Shown here in pieces: positions 57,224-57,711 of a stretch of DNA of 64,000 nucleotides. The notes beneath the pieces were generated by a model that was not told the DNA's origin, made no database searches, and saw nothing but the letters and a program-made list of their open reading frames with translations. The stretch comes from Acidobacteriota bacterium (lineage in GTDB: Bacteria; Acidobacteriota; Vicinamibacteria; Vicinamibacterales; UBA2999), in the NCBI GenBank assembly GCA_016184455.1, contig JACPCS010000105.1:1-64000 (forward strand), read 5' to 3'. Position 1 is the first letter of the stretch, and the number at the start of each line of letters is the position of its first letter. The position numbers and the translations under genes are program-made.

Positions 57224-57711
57224 GAGAACGTCGCAGACAGCCATAAGCCGAATTCTGTCCGCCTTCGCCCGCCTTGCGGCGGGCTACGGCGAGACGACCA
57301 TTCCTCTAGTCCCGCAATTGCTCGCGGGCTCCAGCGACCTACCCGGTGGCTTCGGACGGGCCGTCCTCGATCGCCACCCTATTTGGTCTTGCTCCGTGCG
57401 GGGTTTTGCCTGCCGTCCGTGTTACCACGAACGCGGTGCGCTCTTACCGCACCTTTTCACCATTGCCGCGTCCGCCTGCGCGCCCGAAGGCGCTTCGGCG
57501 AGACGGTAGGCTGTGTGTTTTCTGTGCCACTCATCCGTCAGGTTACCCTGCCCGGGCGTTACCCGGCGCACTGCCCTTCGGAGTTCGGACTTTCCTCCCC
57601 TCGACTCGCCTCTTCGGGGCTCGCTCGGGGCGGGCCCGTTGGCCGGCCTGTCGCGAGCGAGCCCCGAAGGGGCGAGTCGAGCGGCGGTCGTCTGTCTGAC
57701 TGCGACTTCTC
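57224..57711 (-). ncRNA. rnpB: RNase P RNA (bacterial, A-type-like)
   Basis: Reverse strand GAGGGGAGGAAAGTCCGAACTCC ... GGGTAACGCCCGGGCAGGGTAACCTGACGGA ... ACAGAATTCGGCTTAT; GAGAAGTCGCAG/CTGCGACGTTCTC P1 pairing sets the ends. Confidence 0.93.
57600..57681. repeat. 28-bp-arm inverted repeat in the P3 region of rnpB
   Basis: ctcgactcgcctcttcggggctcgctcg (57600-57627) versus cgagcgagccccgaaggggcgagtcgag (57654-57681), 27/28 complementary, 26-nt loop. Confidence 0.95.

Follow-up and report, generated by a model that had tools for sequence, protein, structure and literature searches.

An enlarged P3 helix in the RNase P RNA gene

The window, i.e. the whole 64,000-nt stretch of an Acidobacteriota contig that was analysed, contains an RNase P RNA gene (rnpB) whose P3 hairpin is 82 nt long, and the question raised by this locus is where so long a helix came from. 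An earlier note on this DNA had proposed that a palindromic repeat of the genome was inserted into a peripheral helix of the structural RNA. The gene was identified by a match to the Rfam model RF00010 at 57228-57616 on the minus strand, the strand named in that note (232.2 bits against a cut-off of 100, model positions 1-367). With a score above the cut-off and the whole model covered, it is a class A bacterial RNase P RNA. This is the only RF00010 match in the genome; a single rnpB suggests that its RNA must work, and the gene presumably encodes an active ribozyme. Moreover, the whole RNA folds far below shuffled versions of itself (z = -7.8, 0/100 shuffles). The features referred to below are as follows, the P1 and P2 strands having been placed by hand.

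57230-57706, minus strand: rnpB, class A RNase P RNA gene, from P1 to P1 (RF00010 match plus the hand-placed P1/P2 strands)
57696-57706, minus strand: 5′ strand of P1, GTCGCAGTCAG, from sequence; its 3′ strand is at 57230-57240
57686-57693, minus strand: 5′ strand of P2, AGACGACC, from sequence; its 3′ strand is at 57292-57299
57600-57681, minus strand: P3, a full family-B palindromic element of two inverted half-elements, 82 nt
57654-57681, minus strand: 5′ arm of the P3 element, 28 nt
57628-57653, minus strand: loop of the P3 element, 26 nt, itself partly paired
57600-57627, minus strand: 3′ arm of the P3 element, 28 nt, with one A opposite C
57580-57597, minus strand: conserved GAGGAAAGTCCGAACTCC, directly 3′ of P3, from sequence

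The RF00010 match begins at 57616, within the 3′ arm of P3, and loses the 5′ strands of P1 and P2 together with most of P3, because the apparently inserted helix displaces the P1 and P2 of the model. The Rfam-placed 5′ end of this gene is ~90 nt short. Caution is needed with Rfam-based annotation, which truncates the 5′ end of rnpB genes with such inserts.

Read along the minus strand from 57681 to 57600, P3 is CTCGACTCGCCCCTTCGGGGCTCGCTCG-(26 nt)-CGAGCGAGCCCCGAAGAGGCGAGTCGAG. Its arms are complementary at 27/28 positions, with one C.A, and form a duplex of 11 bp, a mismatch and 16 bp, so that the earlier description of the enlarged hairpin, its arms and its loop stands. The site is that of P3, being enclosed by P1 and P2 with GAGGAAAGTCCG immediately after it. 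In an inverted-repeat search the arms grew to 43 nt (86% complementarity), separated by 8 nt, and therefore the 26-nt loop is mostly paired itself. A mini-palindrome of the GCCCCTTCGGGGC type lies in each arm, as had been noticed, although the 3′ copy has a mismatch. The alternative cruciforms to which these pointed are possible for the DNA. As RNA, however, the branched form of this element is 24 kcal/mol worse than the rod (-48.3 vs -72.3 kcal/mol), and the rod was better by ~12-26 kcal/mol in 8/8 full elements of its family, family B (defined below), which disfavours the cruciform as an RNA structure.

The P3 element is a member of a dispersed repeat family

Family B has the consensus YTCGACT..CGCTCRNGRCA / GAGCG..AGTCGARGG, of which the P3 arm is a variant with the inner stem CCCCTTCGGGG. 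In this genome the pattern YTCGACTN{0,24}CGCTCRNGRCA gave 20 matches against 1 for the reversed control, ~19 of them besides P3, and it is this excess of conserved ends at unrelated loci that makes the P3 element a family-B member and supports the proposal of the earlier note. The likeness holds for the ends and not for the 28-bp arm as a whole: searched across the genome, the exact arm matched only the two P3 arms, and the other B copies differ in their inner stems. As inner stems vary, exact repetition of the arm is not needed for membership. Several B copies of this genome have a composite form of ~70 bp (GGTCCGGCTGCCCTTCGACTTCGCTCAGGGCACCCCGAGCG..GTCGAGGGGTGAAGCCGGACGCC).

Across the order Vicinamibacterales the same pattern was matched in 94/162 genomes, while 107/162 contain another family, A (CGCCGTAGC..GCGAAGGCG). 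A fixed B pattern, GAGCGAGN{2,31}CGAGTCGARGG, gave 576 matches in the 162 genomes against 6 for its reversed control. Seven full B elements have inner parts of 11 nt, and five of these (L050, L190, L191, L192 and L193, judged by eye, the scripted counts including one loop position per arm) have two perfect mini-palindromes and yet 1-2 mismatches arm against arm, a hint of branching that the folding energies above did not bear out. Since the mini-palindromes are perfect while pairing between the arms is mismatched, this suggests that each B half has a history as a hairpin of its own, before rnpB or outside it.

Short B units also form tandem arrays (G085:C80:15061-15199, G045:C78 and G085:C332). 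At L085 and L087 a B element immediately follows a tRNA gene or a tRNA-like 3′ end; at L090 one shortly precedes a tRNA gene.

The long P3 is sporadic among relatives

The earlier note had staked its reading on the long P3 not being common to relatives, and it is not. Among 131 rnpB genes recovered from the 162 genomes, median P3 length is 37 nt, and in the only other genome of the genus (G001) P3 has 38 nt between flanks near-identical to those of this genome. A full B element occupies P3 in five genomes (this one, G051, G061, G071 and G079), which span three families. Three of the five have congeners without the insert; G080, a congener of G079, and G070, a congener of G071, have a short P3 and no element. 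A full B element was also found in P12 of G012, G123 and G100.

To count changes, parsimony was applied to a tree built from the rnpB core (~250 nt, variable helices left out), which may overcount them, so that all counts are upper estimates: full B in P3 takes 5 changes for 5 genomes, B in P12 takes 14 changes for 15, and B in P19 takes 12 for 13. On this tree, full B in P3 needs up to five separate gains. A search of GTDB representatives with the P3 junction returned 6 matches, all from Acidobacteria, 2/6 of them with short P3s. When 396 genomes of the phylum were searched with the P12 junction, exact matches were confined to Vicinamibacterales.

Families A and B recur in rnpB helices

Of the 576 fixed-pattern B copies, 19 fall in P3, P12 or P19 of 15 rnpB genes (15 genomes). 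This is a ~400-fold enrichment over the share of rnpB in the DNA (~60 kb of ~0.7 Gb), or ~40-fold if measured against non-coding DNA, assumed to be 10%. Of 517 helix segments, the tolerant B+ pattern matched 37 and the A+ pattern 81, where shuffles or random hairpins gave ~1-2 per pattern. The tolerant patterns assign 25 P3, 55 P12 and 48 P19 helices to A or B, classes that include some misassignments (e.g. L169). The tmRNAs of these genomes are uniform in length, 43 near-complete copies measuring 347-359 nt, and strict A/B matches were present in 0/30 of the tmRNAs inspected; one B copy lies 38 nt beyond the 3′ end of a tmRNA. Judged by these patterns, P19 of the RNA studied here also resembles a repeat half, and P12 probably does too, both having been missed by the first reading.

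57473-57500, minus strand: P12, degenerate family-A half-element CGCCGAAGC..GCGCAGGCG (tolerant pattern)
57260-57291, minus strand: P19, family-A half-element CGCCGTAGC..GCGAAGGCG (strict pattern)

Lone B halves in rnpB are all in the + orientation (11/11 with the strict pattern, ~29/29 with the tolerant one), a count weakened by the shared ancestry of some of them. The strand of a lone B half that is found in the RNA has tandem G.A mismatches, whereas pyrimidine mismatches take their place in the opposite strand. Two A and two B helices were folded as both strands, and in all four the one present in the RNA was the more stable, by 3-6 kcal/mol. Taken together, the one-way orientation of lone B halves and the better folding of the RNA strand point to selection acting on the RNA. 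Family A is present in P12 in both orientations.

Other palindromes were encountered in the same helices. Within P19, family-A elements are nested in family-A elements at L161, L167, L173, L047 and L052. P12 of L118, L150, L035 and L026 contains other, unrelated long palindromes (e.g. GGGGTCAGATCTTGATTTTTT..) that resemble further repeat families. P12 also has a third palindrome that recurs (L024, L039, L041, L046, L050, L051 and L180). It is like GGAGTGGCGGGGCAGG..CCCCGCCACTCC, is often followed by CCAAGTGCGC, and is present two or three times in L046 and L051. In G111, G113 and G064, rnpB was recovered only as pieces, several of them at contig ends, perhaps because repeats within the gene break the assemblies.

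Origin of the long P3

From the comparison with the congener and the dispersed nature of the family we infer that P3 was enlarged by insertion. We consider it highly probable that a copy of a family-B palindromic repeat replaced the native P3 hairpin, giving the long P3, and was kept because it folds, its retention presumably being due to selection at the RNA level. The full element consists of two inverted halves (YTCGACTCG, the mini-palindrome and CTCGCTCRNGRCA, plus the inverse) around a short spacer. Its outer ends, which pair with each other and terminate in CTC/GAG(GG), let it fit between P2 and the conserved GGAGGAAAG and fold into a rod of ~28 bp that leaves the catalytic core untouched. 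The GG of the outer end could be shared by the conserved GGGAGG 3′ of P3 and GGGTAAG 3′ of P12. Such an element would persist because one-sided trimming would break the helix. Like replacements by A and B have probably occurred many times in P3, P12 and P19 across Vicinamibacterales.

Neither a target-site duplication nor a mobiliser came to light. A RAYT was considered as the mobiliser. Y1 (RAYT-type) transposases are present in 104/162 genomes, with two loci in this one, and at the Y1 loci inspected (30 of a larger set, in other genomes) no A/B association was seen, one weak flanking match apart.

A further step, compatible with replacement by a family-B copy, is that RNase III cuts the 28-bp rod as it does a 23S rRNA intervening sequence, which would leave the RNase P RNA as two pieces held together by helices. 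RNase III substrates have a duplex size range that takes in 11 bp, a mismatch and 16 bp, and sporadic occurrence in peripheral helices resembles that of rRNA intervening sequences; nevertheless, we regard such cutting as doubtful. Similarly tentative is a broader reading in which rnpB of Vicinamibacterales would be a preferred home of mobile palindromes, with repeated entry into P3, P12 and P19, orientation kept by selection, and cleavage of some rods by RNase III, leaving a ribozyme that functions in pieces.

It is very improbable that P3 grew gradually in place, through hairpin slippage or template-switch correction of quasi-palindromes, and came to look like the repeats by convergence on GC-rich stable stems. 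Near-perfect arms are expected from hairpin-templated correction, and P3 length does vary generally within the order. However, the conserved ends TCGACTCG..CTCGCTC are shared by P3, P12 and P19 helices from different genera and turn up next to tRNAs as well, and shuffles of the same composition and random hairpins almost never match. Hardly credible is the reverse route, in which the repeats were born in rnpB, a transcribed and structured gene with A/B-like halves in many P12/P19 helices, and then spread, as dispersed copies outnumber rnpB copies by ~30:1 and have composite flanks of their own, and many of the 107 genomes with family A have no strict rnpB copy.

Relation to known systems

In a 1997 paper, cited by title in PMC2858038, Vioque reportedly described STRR repeats inside cyanobacterial rnpB. 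There, as here, a genomic repeat lies within the RNase P RNA gene; the STRR are short tandem repeats, whereas the elements described here are inverted and hairpin-forming, and STRR are not known to recur in P3, P12 and P19. REP/BIME elements, associated with RAYT, are dispersed imperfect palindromes that occur singly or as inverted pairs. Families A and B share these traits, and family A contains GTAG, but they are distinct sequence families and no RAYT gene was flanked by A/B among the loci inspected. Bacterial 23S rRNA intervening sequences are stem-loop inserts that are excised by RNase III, leaving the RNA in pieces. Like the P3 element, they occupy a peripheral helix, belong to an RNA that is essential and are sporadic among relatives; for the P3 element such excision would be hypothetical, and its repeat family has copies scattered through the genome.

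The palindromic GC clusters and double-hairpin elements of mitochondria are likewise short, GC-rich, sporadic palindromes with merged units and no coding capacity, the palindrome being maintained by constraint, but they belong to organelle genomes, are mostly intergenic and have no tie to RNase P RNA (PMC4478555). P3, P12, P15-17 and P19 have been left out of alignments for their poor conservation (PMC4264200). In the part of the open-licence literature that was searched, no paper was found on these repeat sequences or on palindromic repeats recurring in P3, P12 and P19 across a bacterial order.

According to the accretion model, RNase P RNA has grown from inserted helices (PMC12974513). The P3 element resembles the expansion segments of that model, in that a helix is added at a peripheral site and the core is unchanged, but here the DNA that supplies the helices can be pointed to, and they were gained recently. 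Whereas the accretion model infers such gain from structure only, these genomes would provide both a source and a route for the gain of a peripheral helix in an ancient ribozyme, with insert-free congeners for comparison. Moreover, P3, P12 and P19 over the whole order may serve as many natural replicates for asking which insertions a ribozyme tolerates.
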